64,000 bases of DNA from Aquipseudomonas ullengensis (GTDB lineage Bacteria > Pseudomonadota > Gammaproteobacteria > Pseudomonadales > Pseudomonadaceae), in assembly GCF_014174475.1 (NCBI RefSeq), contig NZ_JACJUD010000005.1, forward strand, positions 1-64,000, read 5' to 3'. The position numbers were made by a program, and so were the translations under genes. This document shows, piece by piece, positions 17,453 to 26,803 of this stretch; the first letter of the stretch is position 1, and each line of letters starts with the position of its first letter. The notes below the pieces were generated by a model that searched no databases, had not been told where the DNA came from, and saw only the letters and a list, made by a program, of their open reading frames with translations.

Positions 17453-18250
17453 TTACTGCTGTTGCACCTGCATCAGCGCCGCCACATTGACCCGCGCATG
17501 CATCTGCTCGCCACCACCGCCACGGCGCATGCCGCGTACCGGGCAGGCGTCGAGGTAGTCGAGGCCGACTGCCAGCTTGAGGTGCCGCTCAGGCTTGTCC
17601 AGCTGGTTGGTCACGTCGAAGCTGTACCAGGCATCGTTGAGCCAGGCCTCGACCCAGGCGTGGCTGGCCAGGTGGCCACTGTCCTCGGTGTACAGGTAGC
17701 CGGACACATAGCGCGCCGGCACGCCCAGGCTGCGAGCGCAGGCCAGGAAGGCGTGCGAGTGATCCTGGCAAACGCCGGCGCGGCCGGAGAAGGCTTCGGC
17801 AGCCGAGGTATCGACCTGGGTCGCACCCGGCACGTAGGCCATGTGCTCGTGCAGGCCATGCATCAGGTCGCTCAGGCCGTCGCGGTCGGTGCGCCCGCCG
17901 CTGCTGGTCTGGGCGAAGTCACGCAGGGCATCGTCGGCATGGGTCAGCCGGGTGGTGCGCAGGTACGGCAGTGCCGAATGACTGTCGCGCTCCGACTCGC
18001 ACAACTCGTCGATCTCGACCTGGCCACGGGCACCGATTACCAGCGCTTCGTGGGGTTCGTCGAGGGTCAGGACGTGGAGGATATTACCGTACGGATCACG
18101 CTGCGCCCGCACCGGTCGCGGCAGGTCGAGTTGCCAGCTGATCACGCGCTGGCGGGCGCTTTCCTGGGGTGTCAGGCGCAGGTACTGGATGCTGGCACGC
18201 ACCTGGTCATCGTAGTTGTAGGTGGTGTCGTGACGGATCGAGAGTCTCAT
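17453..18250 (-). CDS. Transglutaminase-like protein with bacterial N-terminal beta-barrel
   Basis: A 265-residue papain-like transglutaminase/protease-fold enzyme. Residues 1 to about 85 form the bacterial transglutaminase N-terminal domain, and the catalytic core spans about 150-225. The triad is intact: Cys161 (AGVCQDHSH), His197 (SHAWVEAW) and Asp212 (SFDVTNQ). Such proteins more often cut or transfer amide bonds than crosslink proteins. It is the last gene of the operon with the ATP-grasp and alpha-E proteins, overlapping the latter by 4 nt. The real substrate is unknown. Confidence 0.9.
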   Translation of the reverse strand: MRLSIRHDTTYNYDDQVRASIQYLRLTPQESARQRVISWQLDLPRPVRAQRDPYGNILHVLTLDEPHEALVIGARGQVEIDELCESERDSHSALPYLRTTRLTHADDALRDFAQTSSGGRTDRDGLSDLMHGLHEHMAYVPGATQVDTSAAEAFSGRAGVCQDHSHAFLACARSLGVPARYVSGYLYTEDSGHLASHAWVEAWLNDAWYSFDVTNQLDKPERHLKLAVGLDYLDACPVRGMRRGGGGEQMHARVNVAALMQVQQQ

Positions 18251-19197
18251 ACAACCTCCAGATAGGAAGTGTGGATGGAGCTGCCCAACTGGCGAACGAG
18301 CAGGATGAAATCAGTGAGCCAGACATGCAGTCCTTCATCTAGGACCTCGTCAATGCTGGTATAGCGCAACCGTGCGTCGAGTTCCGCAGCCATGCGCTGG
18401 GACAGCCGGCCGTTCTCGCCCGGCAACCCGGAGAGCATCAGGTTCAGCTCCTCCATGCAGGCACGCAACGAGCGCGGGACATCCGGGCGCAGTAACAGCA
18501 ACTCGGCAATCTTGTGAGTACGCGGCGAGCCACGGTAGATCTCGGTGAAGGCTTCGAAGGAGGACAGCGCACGCAGCAGCGCACTCCACTGGTAGTAGCC
18601 ACGCGCCGAGGTGTCGCTGACCGCGTCGGCTTCCTCGCCGAGCATCTCGTAGCGCGCATCGAGCAGGCGCAAGGTATTGTCCGCGCGTTCGATGAAGGTA
18701 CCGAGACGGATGAAGCGATAGGCCTCGCCACGCATGATGGTGCCGAAGGTGGCGCCACGGAACAGGTGCGAACGCTCCTTGACCCACTCGCAGAAACGGC
18801 TGATGCCGTAGCGCCCGAGGCCCTGGGCGGCGATGCCGCGCATCTCCAGCCAAGTGGCGTTGATGTTTTCCCACATGTCGGCCGTGATCCGCCCGCGCAC
18901 GGCGTGGGCGTTGCTGCGCGCACCTTCCAGGCAGCAGTAGATGCTGGCCGGGTTGTCCGCATCGAGGGCGAAGAAGTGCAGCATGCGCTCGGCATGCATC
19001 TGCCCGAAGCGTTCCAGGTAAGCATCCAGGGTGCCGGTGATCAGCAGCGGCATGGCCAGTTCTTCGAGGCCATCGCCACGGCCATCCTGCGGCATCAGCG
19101 ACAGCGAATAGCTGACGTCGAGCATCCGGGCGAGGTTTTCGGCGCGCTCCAGGTAGCGCGACATCCAGTACAGATCGGAGGCAGTTCTACTCAGCAT
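18247..19197 (-). CDS. Alpha-E domain protein (DUF403)
   Basis: A 316-residue all-helical protein starting MLSRTASDLYWMSRYLERAEN, the signature of the alpha-E family. No catalytic motif is evident. It is nearly always encoded beside circularly permuted ATP-grasp and transglutaminase proteins, as here, and is thought to form a complex with the ATP-grasp enzyme. It starts 11 nt after the ATP-grasp stop and overlaps the transglutaminase gene by 4 nt, which implies stoichiometric expression. Confidence 0.9.
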   Translation of the reverse strand: MLSRTASDLYWMSRYLERAENLARMLDVSYSLSLMPQDGRGDGLEELAMPLLITGTLDAYLERFGQMHAERMLHFFALDADNPASIYCCLEGARSNAHAVRGRITADMWENINATWLEMRGIAAQGLGRYGISRFCEWVKERSHLFRGATFGTIMRGEAYRFIRLGTFIERADNTLRLLDARYEMLGEEADAVSDTSARGYYQWSALLRALSSFEAFTEIYRGSPRTHKIAELLLLRPDVPRSLRACMEELNLMLSGLPGENGRLSQRMAAELDARLRYTSIDEVLDEGLHVWLTDFILLVRQLGSSIHTSYLEVV

Positions 19198-19208: not shown

Positions 19209-20618
19209 TTAATCCTCGACCACCCAGGTGTCCTTGGTCCCGCCGCCCTGCGACGAGTTGACCACCAGTGAGCCCTCGCGCAATGCAACGCGGGTCAGGC
19301 CACCAGGCACCAGACGGGTTTCACGACCGGACAGAACGAACGGGCGCAGGTCGATATGGCGCGGCGCAATGCCGCTTTCAACGAAGGTCGGGCAGGTCGA
19401 CAGGCACAGCGTGGGCTGCGCGATATAGGCTTCCGGCTTGGCCTTGAGGCGGGCACGGAAGGCTTCGATTTCAGCCTTGGTCGAGGCCGGGCCAACCAAC
19501 ATGCCGTAGCCGCCGGAGCCCTGGGTTTCCTTGACCACCAGATCGGGCAGGTTGGCCAATACGTGGGACAGGTCTTCGGGCTTGCGGCACTGCCAGGTAG
19601 GCACGTTCTTCAGGATCGGTTCTTCGTCCAAGTAGAAGCGGATCATGTCGGTGACGTAGGGGTAGATCGACTTGTCGTCCGCCACCCCGGTGCCCACGGC
19701 GTTGGCCAGCACCACGTTGCCGCTGCGGTACGAGGCCAGCAGGCCAGGCACGCCGAGCATGGAGTCGGGGTTGAAGGCCAGCGGGTCGAGGAAGGCGTCG
19801 TCCAGGCGCCGGTAGATCACGTCCACCGGCTGCGGGCCGGCGGTGGTGCGCATGAATACCTTGTCGTCACGCACCAGCAGGTCGGCCCCTTCGACCAGTT
19901 CCACGCCCATCTCGCGAGCGAGGAACGCGTGCTCGAAGTAGGCACTGTTGAAGCGCCCCGGGGTGAGTACCACCACGTTGGGGTTATCCAGCGGGCTGGA
20001 GCTTTTCAGGGTATCGAGCAGCAGGTTCGGGTAGTGGTCGATGGGCGCCACGCGCTGCATGGCGAACAGCTCGGGGAACAGGCGCATCATCATCTTGCGG
20101 TCTTCCAGCATGTAGCTGACGCCGCTCGGTGTGCGCAGGTTGTCTTCCAGCACGTAGTAGCTGCCATCGCCGTCACGCACCAGGTCGACCCCGGCGATGT
20201 GCGCGTAGATGTCGCGGTGCAGATCCAGGCCCTGCATCGCCAGTTGGTAACCTTCGTTGGCCAGCACCTGTTCGGGTGGAATGATGCCGGCCTTGAGAAT
20301 GCGTTGATCGTGATAGAGGTCGGCGAGGAACATGTTCAGCGCCTTGACCCGCTGGATACAGCCGGCCTCGACCATGCGCCATTCGCTGGCGGGGATACTG
20401 CGGGGAATGGTGTCAAAGGGAATCAGGCGCTCGGTGCCCTGATCATCGCCATACAGGGTGAAGGTGATGCCAGCGCGGTGGAACAGCAGATCGGCCTCAC
20501 GCCGGCGCTGGGCCAGCAGTTCTTCCGGCGTGTCTGCCAACCAGCGGGCAAACTCCCGGTAGTGCGGGCGGACAATACCGCTCGCGTCATACATTTCGTC
20601 GTAAAAGATACCGGCCAT
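19209..20618 (-). CDS. Circularly permuted type 2 ATP-grasp protein
   Basis: A 469-residue ATP-grasp ligase-fold protein of the circularly permuted type 2 family (former DUF404/DUF407). Recognisable segments include HYREFARWLADTPEEL near the N-terminus, YYVLEDNLRTPSGVSYMLE, VVLTPGRFNSAYFEHAFLA and VVKETQGSGGYGMLVGP, where the lysine and glycine loop should contact ATP. ATP-grasp enzymes join a carboxylate to an amine through an acyl phosphate. It heads the operon, with AAGGAG 6 nt before the ATG and a sigma-54 promoter just upstream. Confidence 0.9.
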   Translation of the reverse strand: MAGIFYDEMYDASGIVRPHYREFARWLADTPEELLAQRRREADLLFHRAGITFTLYGDDQGTERLIPFDTIPRSIPASEWRMVEAGCIQRVKALNMFLADLYHDQRILKAGIIPPEQVLANEGYQLAMQGLDLHRDIYAHIAGVDLVRDGDGSYYVLEDNLRTPSGVSYMLEDRKMMMRLFPELFAMQRVAPIDHYPNLLLDTLKSSSPLDNPNVVVLTPGRFNSAYFEHAFLAREMGVELVEGADLLVRDDKVFMRTTAGPQPVDVIYRRLDDAFLDPLAFNPDSMLGVPGLLASYRSGNVVLANAVGTGVADDKSIYPYVTDMIRFYLDEEPILKNVPTWQCRKPEDLSHVLANLPDLVVKETQGSGGYGMLVGPASTKAEIEAFRARLKAKPEAYIAQPTLCLSTCPTFVESGIAPRHIDLRPFVLSGRETRLVPGGLTRVALREGSLVVNSSQGGGTKDTWVVED

Positions 20619-20653
20619 GCCGTACTCCTTGTCACCCGGACAGAGGAGTCATC

Positions 20654-20668
20654 GCAAGGGCCGTGCCA
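20654..20668 (-). promoter_or_regulatory. Sigma-54 promoter of the ATP-grasp operon
   Basis: On the minus strand TGGCACGGCCCTTGC fits the sigma-54 consensus TGGCACG-N4-TTGC exactly, with GG and GC 10 nt apart. Transcription would begin near 20642, giving a leader of about 24 nt with AAGGAG at 20630-20625 and ATG at 20618. Confidence 0.85.
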
Positions 20669-20720
20669 TGGATTTTTATTGTTATTTTTCAATAACCTGG
20701 ATATTCAATCGACCAGCGGA

Positions 20721-20735
20721 GCACCGCTTTGGTGC
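20721..20735. promoter_or_regulatory. NtrC-type activator site
   Basis: GCACC, five bases (GCTTT), GGTGC: a perfect match to the NtrC palindrome core GCACC-N5-GGTGC, centred about 86 bp upstream of the start predicted from the sigma-54 promoter. The intervening AT-rich stretch would allow DNA bending. Confidence 0.75.
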
Positions 20736-20859
20736 AGCCTGCCCGGCGTCGCGAACAGCATCGCCCCATGGAATGGCAAGGCTGGCCACATGTATCCCCT
20801 GCTGCGACCAGCGCAAAAGCGGCGAGTGAATCCGTGTGGTTGGGTGCATGGCTGGCCTG

Positions 20860-20913
20860 TAGGACGGGTGAGCCTGCGCATATGCCAACGCGGGTTTCAC
20901 CCGCCCTACCGAT
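20860..20913. repeat. Palindromic repeat (GTAGGGCGGGTG type)
   Basis: The arms GTAGGACGGGTGAGCCTGCG and CGCGGGTTTCACCCGCCCTAC face each other. It is a diverged copy of the 13169-13225 element. Confidence 0.6.
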
Positions 20914-20928
20914 GGACCTGCATCGCCC

Positions 20929-20997
20929 TGTAGGAGCCAGCTTGCTGGCGATCAGTGCGCTATCAGGCCTCGGATCGCCAGCAAGCTGGCTCCTACA
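20929..20997. repeat. REP-type inverted repeat with perfect 25-bp arms
   Basis: Positions 20929-20953 and 20973-20997 are perfect inverted complements, starting TGTAGGAGCCAGC, around a 19-nt loop. Each arm also contains CCAGCTTGCTGG, itself a palindrome. This is the common pseudomonad REP arrangement. It lies just beyond the stop of the amidotransferase gene at 21008. Confidence 0.8.
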
Positions 20998-21007
20998 CAA
21001 AGCAGGC

Positions 21008-21733
21008 TCAGACGGCCTGGGCGATAGGTTGCTCATTGAAGGCCAGCGCCAGCCAGTGTCGGTAGAAGCCATCGGCCACACGATTGAGCGCTTCCACCCG
21101 TGCCGGCAGGTCGGTCAGCATCTGGCGCATGCCCTGCTGGCTGGCCTGGGTTTCGTCGAGCAGGTGCGACCAGTCGCTCAGCCAGCCGCGCACCAGCTCC
21201 TCGGTCATTTCCGGGTGGCCTTGCAGGGCCAGCACCTTGTCACCCCAGGTGAAACCCTGGTTCGGGCACCAGGGACTGGACAGCAGCCACTCGGCGCCCT
21301 TGGGCAAATCGAAGGTATCGCTATGCCATTGGTAAACCGGGAACTCGACCGGCAGGTGCGCCAGCCAGGGACTGGCTCGCTCGCGGCGGATCAGCGGCTG
21401 CCAACCCACTTCGGTGTACGGCATGCGGTGCACGGCCGCGCCCAGGGCACGGGCAATCAGTTGCCCGCCGAGGCAATGGCCGATGATGGGGATGTCGCGC
21501 TGAATGAAGTGCTGCAATGCGGCAACTTCTACCCCTATCCAGGGCAGCGGATCGTTGACGCTCATTGGCCCGCCCATCACCGCCACGGCACGCGGGCGGT
21601 CCAGGTCATAGCCGTCCAGCTCGCCAAGATCGGCGCGCAGTATCGTGAAGTCGAGACCCTGCTCAGCCAGAACGGTGGCAAGGTGGCCCGGAGCACAATA
21701 ATCGACGTGGGTAAGGATCAGGATGTCGGTCAT
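21008..21733 (-). CDS. Class I glutamine amidotransferase-like protein (second paralogue)
   Basis: A 241-residue free-standing GATase1-fold protein with the nucleophile in IIGHCLGGQL (Cys87) and the histidine/glutamate in LQGHPEM. It resembles GMP-synthase-like glutamine amidotransferases that hydrolyse glutamine or gamma-glutamyl amides. The start at 21733 (MTDILILTHVDY) has GGAG 7 nt upstream; the frame is open 19 codons further. It lies between the ATP-grasp operon and gdhB, all leftward, and has its own sigma-54-like promoter. The partner synthase, if any, is unknown. Confidence 0.88.
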   Translation of the reverse strand: MTDILILTHVDYCAPGHLATVLAEQGLDFTILRADLGELDGYDLDRPRAVAVMGGPMSVNDPLPWIGVEVAALQHFIQRDIPIIGHCLGGQLIARALGAAVHRMPYTEVGWQPLIRRERASPWLAHLPVEFPVYQWHSDTFDLPKGAEWLLSSPWCPNQGFTWGDKVLALQGHPEMTEELVRGWLSDWSHLLDETQASQQGMRQMLTDLPARVEALNRVADGFYRHWLALAFNEQPIAQAV

Positions 21734-21761
21734 GACTACTCTCCGTTGTCCGCTTGCCAAG

Positions 21762-21776
21762 GCAAGGCGCGTGCCG
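21762..21776 (-). promoter_or_regulatory. Sigma-54-like promoter of the second amidotransferase
   Basis: On the minus strand CGGCACGCGCCTTGC has the invariant GG and GC 10 nt apart and matches TGGCACG-N4-TTGC at all but the first base. The start would be near 21750, about 17 nt before the ATG at 21733. Only a GCACC half-site (21833-21837) is visible upstream. Confidence 0.65.
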
Positions 21777-21888
21777 AAACACGAACCCACATCGGTCTGA
21801 CGGACTTTTTATTTGCGAGCAGGCTAACCGAGGCACCTGCGGCCGACTAGCCCCTCTGCTGAGAGAAGCCAGTCGACCGCATGGCCAG

Positions 21889-21940: not shown

Positions 21941-24900
21941 TCAGGGTATGCGCACGCCCTGCTTGTCGCTCTGCGCGAGGTCCATCAACTCGCGGTTGGC
22001 CACCGCGTACATGGCGTAATCGGTGCCGGTGGCCGCACGCAATTCGCCCAGCATCGCCAGCCAACGCTGCACCAGGGTGCGGTGCTGCTCCAGCCAGAAG
22101 ACCACCCGCTCCTCGATATCTGCCGGCCCTTCGGCCATCTGCAGCACGGCGATGGTGATGGCGCGCTGCTGCCAATCGAGATCGTCGCGGAACGCTTCGC
22201 GGGCCAGGGCCTGCCAGTTGTTTTCCACCGGCAGGCTGGTGATCTGCTGCAGGTACCAGGACAGCTCCAGCGCGCCACCTACGGCGAAGTAGGCGGTGGC
22301 AACTTCCGAGGCCGGTTTGCCGGTGACATCCGCCGCCTCGATGATCGGCAACAGGGTGTACAGGTGACTGGTGCCGGCCACCACACGGGCCAATTCCTCC
22401 GGCGCGCCGGCTTCGACGAAGCCCTGGTAGCGCGACAGCCACAGCTCGCGCGCCGGGCCTTCCAGCAGCTCATCCAGGCGCATGGCCAGCTCGGCCACAC
22501 GCGGACCGAAGTGACCGACATCGCGGGCGGCGTCCAGGTCATCGCGGCGGCTGCGCAGGAACCAGCGCGTGGCGCGGCGCCCCAGGCGCATCAGTTCATC
22601 CATCAGCATCAGCTGCAGTTCGGCCGGCACCTGATAGTCCAGCGCCTCGATCTGCTTCCACCAGTGCGGCAGGCGGAACACGTCGCGCACGATGACGTAG
22701 GCGCCGGCGACATTCGCCGCGCTCATGCCGGTGGACTCCTTGAGCCGCTGCACGAAGGTGATGCCCATGTGGTTGACCAGGTCGTTGGCGATCTGCGTGC
22801 TGACGATCTCGCGCTTCAGGCGATGGCGACGCATCGGCTCGGCGAACTTCTTGCTCAGCTGCGCCGGGAACGCGGTTTCCATCTCGCGGGCCAGGTAGTC
22901 GTCGTCCGGCACTAGGGATTTGAGCAGTGCTTCCTTGAGGTCGATCTTGCTGTAGGAAATCAGCACCGACAGCTCCGGCCGGGTCAGGCCACGACCGCTG
23001 GCCGCACGCTCATTGAGTTCGTCGTCGGACGGCAGGAACTCCAGCGCGCGATCCAGCTTGCCGGCCGCTTCCAGCGCGGCCATCAGGCGCTTGTACTCGG
23101 CCAGGCGTTCGCGGGCGCGACGCTCGGCCAGGGACAGGGCCTGGGTCTGCTTGTAGTTGTTGCCCAGCACCAGCGCGCCGACCGCATCAGTCATCTCGGC
23201 CAGCAGCTTGTTGCGCTGCTTGCCGGTCATGTCGCCGGCGCCGACGATTTCGCCGAGCAGGATCTTGATGTTCACCTCATGGTCGGAGCAGTCCACGCCG
23301 CCGGCGTTGTCGATGAAGTCAGTGTTGCTGGCGCCGCCGCTCAGGCCGTATTCGACGCGGCCGAGCTGGGTCATGCCGAGGTTGCCGCCCTCGCCCACCA
23401 CCTTGGCGCGCAGCTCACAGCCGTTGACCCGCAGGCCGTCGTTGGCCTTGTCGCCGACGTCGGCGTGGCTCTCCTTGCTCGACTTCACATAGGTTCCGAT
23501 GCCGCCGTTCCACAGCAGGTCGACCGGCGCCTTGAGCAGCGCATTGAGCAGCTCGGTCGGCGCCAGCTTGTCGGCGCTGATGTCGAAGCGCGCCTGCATT
23601 TCCGGGCTGATGGCGATGCTCTTGGCGCTGCGCAGGAAGATCCCGCCGCCCGCGGAAATCAGCTTGGCGTCGTAGTCCGCCCAGCTGGAGCGCGGCAGGT
23701 CGAACAGGCGCTGGCGCTCGACGAAGCTCTTGGCCGCATCCGGGTTGGGGTCGATGAAGATGTGCATGTGGTTGAAGGCGGCGACCATCTGCAGCTTGTC
23801 CGACAGCAGCAGGCCGTTGCCGAACACGTCGCCGGCCATGTCGCCAATGCCGATCACCGTGGTCAGGTCTTTCTGCACGTCGATGCCGCACTCGCGGAAG
23901 TGACGCTGCACTGAAACCCAGCCACCCTTGGCGGTAATACCCATGCCCTTGTGGTCGTAACCGGCCGAGCCACCGGAGGCGAACGCATCGCCGAGCCAGA
24001 AGCCGTAGTCCAGGGCGATGCCGTTGGCGATGTCGGAGAAGGTCGCGGTGCCCTTGTCGGCTGCCACCACCAGGTACGGATCATCCGGGTCGTGACGCAC
24101 CACGTTGGCGGGCGGCACCACGGCGCCGTCCTTGAGGTTGTCGGTGATGTCGAGCAGGCCGCTGATGAAGATGCGGTAGCAGGCGATGCCCTCGGCCAGA
24201 ACCTCGTCGCGGTTGGCGCCCACCGGCATCTTGCGCGGGATGAAGCCGCCCTTGGCGCCCATCGGCACGATCACCGCGTTCTTCACTTGCTGCGCTTTCA
24301 CCAGGCCGAGCACTTCGGTACGGAAGTCCTCTTCGCGATCCGACCAACGCAGGCCACCACGGGCCACGTCGCCGAAGCGAAGGTGCACGCCTTCGACGCG
24401 CGGGCAGTAGACGAAGATCTCGTACTTGGGCACCGGCCGTGGAATCTCCGGGATCAGCCGCGGGCTGAGCTTGAAGCTGAAGTACGGCTTGGCCTGGCCG
24501 TCGGCGCCCGGCTGGTAGAAGTTGGTGCGCAGGGTGGCCTTGATCAGGTCCAGGTAGCGCCGCAGGATGCGGTCTTCGTTGAGCACCGCGACATTGTCCA
24601 GCGCGGCGAGGATGGCCTGCTCCAGCTTCTGCTGCTTGTCCTCGAGGTCTTCAACGGTGAGCTTGCGCGCCAGGTAGAAGCGGGTCTTGAACAGGCGCAC
24701 CAGCTCCTTGGTGACCTCGGCATGATTGACCAGGGTGCTGGCGATATAGCTCAGGTCGAAACCCAGGCGGATCTGCTTGAGGTAGCGCGCATAGGCGCGC
24801 AGCAGCGCCACGTCGCGCCAGGGGATGGAGGCGGTCAGCACCAGGCGGTTGAAGGCATCGTTCTCAGCAAAGCCACCGACGATCTGCACGAAGGCATCCT

Positions 24901-26803
24901 GCAGGGTGTCGTTGAGCTGCTGGATATCGATATCCAGACCTTCGGCCGCGGTGAAGGCGAAATCGTGAATCCAGAACTCGCGACCATCGGCGCGGCGCAG
25001 CTTGTAGGGGAACTCACCGAGTACGCGCAAGCCGAGGTTTTCCAGGATCGGCAGCACGTCCGACAGCGGCAGCGGCGTATCGGCGTGGTACAGCTTGCAG
25101 TGCAGCTCGCGATCGCCCTGGGCCAGCGGCTGGTAGAAGCTCATCACCAGCTGGCGCTGCTCGGAGAGACTGAGCAGGTGCTGCATGTCGACCACCGCCG
25201 AGTGCGGGGCGAAACGCTCGTAGTAGCCGGCCGGGAAGCCTTTCGGGAAGTCGGCCAGCACCTGGGTGCCCTGGGCCTCGCCGAAGCTTTCCACCACCAG
25301 GCTGGCGTAGTCGTCCTTCCACGACCGGCAAGCCTGGATGACTTCCTTCTCGATGCGCGCCGGGTCGATCTGCGTGCGGTTCTTCGGGTCGACCTTGAGG
25401 ATGAACTGCACCCGCGCCAGCACCGACTCGGAGAAATAGGTCCAGAACTCGCAGTCACTGGCGCCCAGGCGCTCCATGAGGATCTGCTGGATTTTCACCC
25501 GGGTCTCGGTGGAGTACACGTCGCGCGGCACGTAGGCCAGGCAGTAGGCGAAGCGGCCGTAAGGGTCGCGGCGGATGAACAGGCGCAGTTTGTTGCGTTC
25601 CTGGATCTGCACGATGGCGATGGCGGTGTTGAACAGCTCGTCCACCGGGGTCTGGAACAGGTCGTCACGCGGCAGCACTTCGAGGATCTGCTCCAGCTCC
25701 TTGCCCAGGTGCGCCTGGCGGTCGAAGCCGGAGCGCTGGGCGATTTCCGCCACCTTGCGGCGGATAAAGGGAATGCGATTGACGCTCTCGGCATACACCG
25801 CCGAGGTGTACAGGCCCATGAAGCGGCATTCCTTGACCACCCGGCCCTTGGCGTCCAGCTCACGAATGGAGACGAAATCCGGGTACGCCGGGCGGTGCAC
25901 GCGGCTCGGCAGCGCGGCCTTGGCGAAGGACAGCAGCAGCGGCTCACGCAGGTAGTCGACCGCCTCCTTCTCGACGTGCAGCTCGTCCTTGGTCAGGCCG
26001 CTACGCAGGCGGCGCGACAGGCCGAGCAGGGATTTCTGGTCATACACCAGGTGGCCGCCGTCCTTCTCCTCGACCAGGGTGAATTCCTCGTAACCGAGGA
26101 AAGTGAAGTGGTTGTCCAGCAGCCAGGCGAGGAAGGTCTTCACTTCGGCCAGTTCGGCGCCATCGACCTTGAGCTTGGCCTTGTCCAGCCCGGCCAGTAG
26201 CTCTTCGGCACGGGCCTTCATCGGGCGGAAGTCGGCAACCGCCAGGCGCACTTCCTCGAGCACATCCTGCAGCGCCGTTTCCAGCGCACGCAATTCGCCG
26301 GCATTGGCGCAGCGGTCGATCTCCAGGTACATCAGCGCTTCTTGCTGCACATCCTTGGCGGTGCTGCCCTTGGCCACCAGCTCCTGCAGGTCGCCATTCT
26401 TCTTGCGTCGCACATTGAACACGCTGTTTTGCAGGGTGTGGATGCTGTAGCCGCGACGGTTCAGCTCCATACGCACCGAGTCGACCAGGAACGGCAGGTC
26501 GGCATGCAGCACTTCCACGGCGCTGTGGGTGGACTGCCAGCCGTGCTTCTCGTAGTCGGGGTTGTAGGCGCGCACCACTGGCTTGGCCGGGTCGAAGCGC
26601 TCGAGCAGGCGCCAGGAAGACAGGGTGCAACCCGCCAGGTCACTGATGCGGCGCTGGGTCAGCTCGTCGAGGGCGACGATGCCGAAGAATTGTTCAGCGA
26701 ACAGGGTGAGTTGTGGCAGTGCCTTGTCGCTGACGTGCTGTGCCAGGGCCGCTTGCAGTTGATGCTGGAAGTCGGCTTTGCTGGCCGCGGTGAAGAACGC
26801 CAT
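21941..26803 (-). CDS. gdhB: NAD-specific glutamate dehydrogenase, large (180 kDa) type
   Basis: Oxidatively deaminates glutamate to 2-oxoglutarate and ammonium in the catabolic direction. The 1620 residues equal the P. aeruginosa GdhB length as I know it. The order is a long N-terminal regulatory part with ACT-like regions, then the dehydrogenase core with VPMGAKGGFIPRK (Lys near residue 855) and a Rossmann region around VIGIGDMAGDVFGNG, then a long C-terminal helical part. GGAGC 8 nt before the ATG supports the start. In P. aeruginosa the enzyme is induced by arginine and allosterically activated by arginine. No frameshift is seen along 4.9 kb. Confidence 0.97.
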   Translation of the reverse strand: MAFFTAASKADFQHQLQAALAQHVSDKALPQLTLFAEQFFGIVALDELTQRRISDLAGCTLSSWRLLERFDPAKPVVRAYNPDYEKHGWQSTHSAVEVLHADLPFLVDSVRMELNRRGYSIHTLQNSVFNVRRKKNGDLQELVAKGSTAKDVQQEALMYLEIDRCANAGELRALETALQDVLEEVRLAVADFRPMKARAEELLAGLDKAKLKVDGAELAEVKTFLAWLLDNHFTFLGYEEFTLVEEKDGGHLVYDQKSLLGLSRRLRSGLTKDELHVEKEAVDYLREPLLLSFAKAALPSRVHRPAYPDFVSIRELDAKGRVVKECRFMGLYTSAVYAESVNRIPFIRRKVAEIAQRSGFDRQAHLGKELEQILEVLPRDDLFQTPVDELFNTAIAIVQIQERNKLRLFIRRDPYGRFAYCLAYVPRDVYSTETRVKIQQILMERLGASDCEFWTYFSESVLARVQFILKVDPKNRTQIDPARIEKEVIQACRSWKDDYASLVVESFGEAQGTQVLADFPKGFPAGYYERFAPHSAVVDMQHLLSLSEQRQLVMSFYQPLAQGDRELHCKLYHADTPLPLSDVLPILENLGLRVLGEFPYKLRRADGREFWIHDFAFTAAEGLDIDIQQLNDTLQDAFVQIVGGFAENDAFNRLVLTASIPWRDVALLRAYARYLKQIRLGFDLSYIASTLVNHAEVTKELVRLFKTRFYLARKLTVEDLEDKQQKLEQAILAALDNVAVLNEDRILRRYLDLIKATLRTNFYQPGADGQAKPYFSFKLSPRLIPEIPRPVPKYEIFVYCPRVEGVHLRFGDVARGGLRWSDREEDFRTEVLGLVKAQQVKNAVIVPMGAKGGFIPRKMPVGANRDEVLAEGIACYRIFISGLLDITDNLKDGAVVPPANVVRHDPDDPYLVVAADKGTATFSDIANGIALDYGFWLGDAFASGGSAGYDHKGMGITAKGGWVSVQRHFRECGIDVQKDLTTVIGIGDMAGDVFGNGLLLSDKLQMVAAFNHMHIFIDPNPDAAKSFVERQRLFDLPRSSWADYDAKLISAGGGIFLRSAKSIAISPEMQARFDISADKLAPTELLNALLKAPVDLLWNGGIGTYVKSSKESHADVGDKANDGLRVNGCELRAKVVGEGGNLGMTQLGRVEYGLSGGASNTDFIDNAGGVDCSDHEVNIKILLGEIVGAGDMTGKQRNKLLAEMTDAVGALVLGNNYKQTQALSLAERRARERLAEYKRLMAALEAAGKLDRALEFLPSDDELNERAASGRGLTRPELSVLISYSKIDLKEALLKSLVPDDDYLAREMETAFPAQLSKKFAEPMRRHRLKREIVSTQIANDLVNHMGITFVQRLKESTGMSAANVAGAYVIVRDVFRLPHWWKQIEALDYQVPAELQLMLMDELMRLGRRATRWFLRSRRDDLDAARDVGHFGPRVAELAMRLDELLEGPARELWLSRYQGFVEAGAPEELARVVAGTSHLYTLLPIIEAADVTGKPASEVATAYFAVGGALELSWYLQQITSLPVENNWQALAREAFRDDLDWQQRAITIAVLQMAEGPADIEERVVFWLEQHRTLVQRWLAMLGELRAATGTDYAMYAVANRELMDLAQSDKQGVRIP

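Follow-up and report, generated by a model that had tools for sequence, protein, structure and literature searches.

We found that the minus-strand sequence at positions 21776-21761, just upstream of a class I glutamine amidotransferase-like gene, is very probably a working sigma-54 (RpoN) promoter of this gene, which would have arisen once, in the ancestor of a clade of 22 orthologue rows, inside an older element, and been carried from there to a position behind gdhB. The DNA analysed (the window) is a stretch of 64,000 nucleotides from a Pseudomonas genome of 4.63 Mb (G000). The promoter reading is well supported and the observation behind it was confirmed; its most interesting part is the clade-limited gain inside what is probably an older promoter. 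Such a gain would mean that, in one Pseudomonas lineage, the likely sigma-54 regulon includes one more conserved gene, and the old, nested and new promoter forms found in living species would provide a natural series for the passage to an activator-dependent sigma factor. It would also set the control of the amidotransferase apart from that of the neighbouring ATP-grasp operon, which has already been described as nitrogen-responsive.

Three units share the minus strand here: a gdhB-type gene, the amidotransferase gene 207 bp after it and, a further 389 bp downstream, the ATP-grasp operon (Table 1). The best matches of its product among solved structures are the class I glutamine amidotransferases of PDB entries 3m3p, 9xfs and 1o1y (TM1158), with which it shares the Pfam GATase domain. 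It falls below every NCBIfam equivalog cut-off, the best being PRK07053 (177.6 of the 250 bits needed). The intact Cys-His-Glu motifs make glutamine or a gamma-glutamyl compound its likely substrate.

Table 1. Positions of the genes and control elements discussed in the text, numbered from the first letter of the window.
Feature	Positions	Strand	Basis
Sigma-54-type motif CGGCACGCGCCTTGCC	21761-21776	-	GG-N10-GC, 10 of 12 consensus positions; kept in 21 of 22 clade rows; column conservation
Predicted transcription start	21750	-	Motif geometry, final C of GC (21762) counted as -12
Shine-Dalgarno-like GGAGAG	21739-21744	-	Read from the sequence
Palindrome CTTGCCAAGGCAAG, overlapping the -12 element	21753-21766		Read from the sequence; broken in several relatives
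TCGGTTAGCC, candidate activator site or other control element	21822-21831	-	Contains the conserved TCGGTTAG; an A-rich run follows
Class I glutamine amidotransferase-like protein, 241 aa	21008-21733	-	Pfam PF00117; catalytic motifs GHC (Cys) and GHPE (His/Glu) unchanged in all 64 orthologues examined
NAD-glutamate dehydrogenase (gdhB-type), upstream neighbour	21941-26803	-	Pfam PF05088
First sigma-54 motif TGGCACGGCCCTTGCG, upstream of the ATP-grasp gene	20653-20668	-	Kept upstream of the ATP-grasp gene in 53 of 54 distinct regions
NtrC-like site TGCACCAAAGCGGTGCT of the ATP-grasp promoter	20720-20736	-	NtrC-site scan
Circularly permuted ATP-grasp type 2 protein	19209-20618	-	Pfam PF14403
Alpha-E domain protein	18247-19197	-	Pfam PF04168
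Transglutaminase-like protein	17453-18250	-	Pfam PF08379, PF01841

The original prediction had pointed to CGGCACGCGCCTTGC (21776-21762, minus strand), which has a single mismatch to TGGCACG-N4-TTGC, and its sequence, strand, coordinates, GG-N10-GC spacing, single mismatch and distance of about 17 nt between the predicted start and the ATG all proved correct. The motif lies 43 nt from the ATG, on the same strand as the amidotransferase, and the predicted +1 near 21750 falls 17 nt ahead of the A of the ATG (21733). The sigma-54 consensus is quoted as TGGCAC-N5-7-TTGCT in PMC12316311; a paper on the promoter of this amidotransferase itself did not appear among the literature records listed. With the -24/-12 promoters of this class the window motif shares the GG-N10-GC arrangement, the GGCACG-N4-TTGC core and the distance to the gene; unlike them, it has a C in place of the T before GG and is not accompanied by a recognised activator site. 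Sigma-54 RNA polymerase would bind GG at -24 and GC at -12, and an enhancer-binding ATPase would open the complex, giving a transcript that starts near 21750 with a leader of about 17 nt. The genome contains one rpoN match (521.8 bits, above the cut-off), one NtrC above the cut-off and, by our own reading, 12 proteins in all with an activator domain.

We estimated how often such a match arises by chance. We made dinucleotide shuffles of the 207-bp intergenic region and scanned the sense strand, always requiring GG and GC: 0.98% of the shuffles (0.0098) contained a match at 10 or more of the 12 positions, and 6.7% one at 9 or more. A loose pattern (up to 3 mismatches) was uninformative in the 64-kb window (138 matches against 146 expected). 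The exact core GGCACGNNNNTTGC matched the genome 16 times, compared with 6 times for a reversed-pattern control; these matches are split 10 to 6 between the strands and include the amidotransferase site as well as a second one 1,108 bp away on the same strand, at 20668-20653. By our own arithmetic from the 16 matches, about 0.03 same-strand pairs within 1.1 kb would be expected; the original prediction had called such a pair unlikely by chance. Six of the 16 matches stand directly before a gene, namely the two sites considered here and those before glnA, flgF, flgA and a histidine-kinase gene located between two activator genes; glnA, flagellar genes and the like are sigma-54 targets. Among the other ten, only L113 was placed ahead of a gene, at 120 nt from a LysR-type one, and the core alone is therefore a weak predictor. 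The decisive evidence for a promoter is conservation, not the number of matches.

To follow conservation we collected orthologues from 199 and then 398 genomes of the genus, together with named genomes. The amidotransferase was present in 30 of the 199 genomes (our own tally) and in 56 of the 398 at E values up to 1e-60. In a tree of 64 orthologue rows, of which the bootstrap is not fully settled and the deep forks are weak, the window's sequence belongs to a clade of 22 rows with a support of 98/93. All but one of these rows (21/22) keep GG-N10-GC, with 9-11 of the 12 consensus positions, 43-49 nt before the ATG, while flanks, spacer, distance and upstream neighbour vary; the member without the motif is P. 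kuykendallii (L047), which sits on a long branch. Even the off-consensus bases are mostly constant, the T of TGG being replaced by C in 21 of 21 motif rows and TTGC being followed by C in 19 of 21. None of the 42 tree rows outside the clade reached 9 of 12 at the corresponding place. Two of them did so elsewhere, at -16 and -79, and because of these positions the motif cannot play the same part there; L036, L054, L182 and L183 do have GG-N10-GC between -36 and -55, matching 7-8 of 12 positions. Nearly all sampled close relatives have the motif and distant ones do not, a pattern that suggests a genuine switch acquired in a single branch of the genus. The original prediction had named a lack of GG-N10-GC conservation before orthologues as the observation that would speak against it, and within the clade the opposite was found. 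Its claim that a sigma-54 promoter drives the amidotransferase is supported, although the orthologues outside the clade lack the motif.

Conservation of the block might also reflect a site for another DNA-binding protein or recent common ancestry alone, a reading that we regard as very improbable. In its favour, some rows have a palindrome (CTTGCCAAGGCAAG) that overlaps the -12 element; this palindrome is, however, broken in several rows that keep the motif. As to ancestry, among 14 clade representatives the specified positions had a mean of 1.93 bits and the others 0.65, the rows being those that passed the motif threshold, so that the invariance of GG and GC is built into these values and that of the remaining positions partly so. 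The four N positions vary and are less conserved than the boxes, and in the same representatives the 17 positions that precede the motif at -25 to -9 had only 0.08-0.44 bits each. This weak conservation of the flank means that ancestry alone does not explain the conserved block. We also considered that the motif could belong to an N-terminal coding extension, as the upstream frame is open in the window (GTG at 21790). The distances to the ATG among the clade rows (-43, -44, -45, -46, -48 and -49) differ by non-multiples of three and hence are not all in one reading frame, which rules out such an extension.

We also scanned 150 nt at each of 48 further loci from beta- and gammaproteobacteria. 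L082 and L091 scored 10 of 12, both at -83 (0.1 expected from shuffles), and L085 scored 9 of 12 at -82 (about 1 expected), while the remainder followed the shuffles. These three loci are betaproteobacterial, two of them from MAGs, and their sigma-54-like motifs stand at a near-equal distance from the gene, further upstream than in Pseudomonas. They are possibly an independent case.

Outside the clade a different element precedes the gene. CTCGAC-N18/19-CAGACT was found with up to 2 mismatches in 44 of 52 outside rows, compared with 3 of 22 rows inside the clade and 3 of 370 shuffles. It is exact in 32 of the 52 and, inside the clade, only in L008, L033 and L047. Read as TCGACC or TCGACT, 17-18 nt and CAGACT, it resembles, in our own reading, a weak sigma-70 promoter, and it is probably a promoter of this type. 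In L008 and L033 both elements are present and nested, the sigma-54 boxes lying within the spacer of CTCGAC-N18/19-CAGACT. In 13 of the 52 outside rows (our own tally) the spacer carries TTTGC in register, with AG as the aligned dinucleotide, one change away from GG. Over eight genomes the element had 0-4 exact matches each (14 in total, against 13 for the reversed control) and we therefore rejected it as the mark of a large regulon; seven of the eight have one of their matches at the amidotransferase, and there is none in the genome of the window.

These data bear on the idea that the gene is still under a sigma-70-type promoter, as it probably is in other Pseudomonas, and that the sigma-54-like match is a by-product of a conserved spacer. 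The frequency of the exact older element outside the clade is consistent with this, as is the TTTGC that many outside rows have in its spacer, which means that part of the sigma-54 match predates the clade. Against it, CTCGAC-N18/19-CAGACT is gone from the window's subclade, which has retained GG, CACG and TTGC; the -24 half is confined to the clade, where it has been kept despite changed flanks and a changed neighbour; and by the criteria of our search tool the minus strand between 20550 and 22100 gave no match of sigma-70 type. We consider this explanation improbable and continue to favour the sigma-54 promoter.

The upstream neighbour changed within the clade. Outside the clade, rraB takes this place in 50 of 52 rows; inside, it does so in 9 of 22, of which 8 have the motif (the identity of rraB was set by Pfam for L034). 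In the window's subclade gdhB precedes the gene in 12 of 13 rows, all 12 with the motif, as against none of the 52 outside rows; the thirteenth, L178, has neither rraB nor gdhB within the locus DNA compared. The simplest reading takes the arrangement with rraB upstream as ancestral and has the gene relocated behind gdhB, together with about 45 nt of promoter DNA, in the common ancestor of the subclade. The promoter would thus have arisen once, in the ancestor of the 22-row clade, in the spacer of CTCGAC-N18/19-CAGACT while the gene was behind rraB; in the window's subclade the gene would then have come to lie behind gdhB, the promoter staying with it and the older element decaying. Given the weak support for the tree's deep forks, we infer this direction of change. 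It is also possible, though we propose this with some hesitation, that the sigma factor was changed by point changes in place. A conserved promoter, probably of sigma-70 type, with TTTGC already in its spacer would have gained GG at -24, passed through the nested state still seen in L008 and L033 and lost the older element in the window's subclade, leaving there, behind gdhB, only the sigma-54 boxes and the new block TCGGTTAGCC, perhaps a new activator site.

Within this block, TCGGTTAG is shared by 11 of the 13 rows in the window's subclade, at -95 to -98 from the ATG, and was absent from the 200 nt upstream of the gene in all other rows. It was the only upstream block found in common and may be an activator site, in which case the activator or its site must differ in the other clade rows, since these do not have it. 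Dyads upstream of the amidotransferase showed nothing common among the rows, and patterns for NtrC, AauR, GcsR, CbrB, FleQ and IHF (consensus sequences) scored there close to the shuffles. The NtrC half-site GCACC described at 21833-21837 is present on the plus strand, without a partner. NtrC-like sites before the amidotransferase were no better than in shuffles, whereas the ATP-grasp gene has one (up to 3 mismatches in 12) at a fixed distance in 46 of 54 distinct upstream regions, compared with 0.4% of shuffles. NtrC as the activator of the amidotransferase promoter is not supported.

The neighbouring operon is of the same type as the nitrogen-responsive ATP-grasp operons of P. putida (PP_2688) and B. 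cenocepacia (I35_5080-83) and likewise has a sigma-54 motif and an NtrC-like site; the amidotransferase promoter differs in being separate and in having no NtrC-like site. Because the next gene down has a sigma-54 promoter of its own, the promoter studied here would probably serve the amidotransferase alone. PP_2688, named a circularly permuted ATP-grasp type 2 protein, rises on nitrate (PMC8050072), and I35_5080-83 is targeted by both sigma-54 and NtrC (PMC5491218). PP_2686-PP_2688 were induced 14-20 fold also in an rpoN strain, according to PMC7801951, which does not fit with simple sigma-54 dependence. PP_2685, which belongs to the matching P. putida operon, carries the annotation of a proteasome beta-type subunit; inspection by eye showed no counterpart of it directly behind the transglutaminase gene in the window.

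The original prediction had also proposed that the amidotransferase works with the ATP-grasp system. In the form considered here it would act in the pathway of the ATP-grasp, alpha-E and transglutaminase operon, for example by releasing ammonia or cleaving the gamma-glutamyl products of the operon, and the NtrC site might serve both promoters from about 1 kb. The ATP-grasp gene is adjacent and in the same orientation in 19 of the 30 loci from the 199 genus genomes (our own tally). In the locus DNA compared the two genes are neighbours in 15 of 22 rows of the clade and in 21 of 52 outside it; these are lower bounds as many loci cover about 1.5 kb downstream or less. The ATP-grasp gene lies downstream in 7 of the 12 rows in which gdhB replaces rraB upstream. 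The 1.1-kb separation of the two sigma-54 motifs and the nitrogen or NtrC/sigma-54 response of ATP-grasp orthologues elsewhere also agree with a common pathway. On the other hand, 7 of the 22 clade rows have no ATP-grasp gene within about 1.5-3 kb beyond the amidotransferase and all seven keep the motif, including G028, in which a genome-wide search found no ATP-grasp match, while outside the clade the motif is missing from the corresponding place in all 21 rows where the genes are adjacent. Adjacency and sigma-54 control are thus not tied, and the argument for a common function comes down to gene order. Moreover, an ATP-grasp match was found in 165 of the 199 genomes against 30 for this amidotransferase, and the two genes have separate promoters in the window. 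We therefore think a shared pathway unlikely, although the two genes stand side by side in many Pseudomonas. The single NtrC-like site about 1 kb downstream was rejected as serving both promoters, since rows with no ATP-grasp gene nearby keep the motif.

Several minor observations were made around the gene. Between the amidotransferase and ATP-grasp genes, at 20859-20997, there are two long inverted repeats (GTAGGACGGGTGA...CACCCGCCCTAC and GTAGGAGCCAGCTTGCTGGCGATC...GATCGCCAGCAAGCTGGCTCCTACA) of the dispersed palindrome type. In L030 (G138) the amidotransferase is split or shortened, residues 1-113 and 196-232 matching separately, and the ATP-grasp gene still follows. L033 (3860-5284) and L045 (3848-5422), which stem from different parts of the orthologue tree, have no ATP-grasp neighbour; in both, the amidotransferase is followed by a convergent aldehyde dehydrogenase-like gene (called from a Pfam hit for L045 and by eye for L033), beyond which L033 has an ABC permease-like frame. 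The aldehyde dehydrogenase-like neighbour is a possible hint at amine catabolism.
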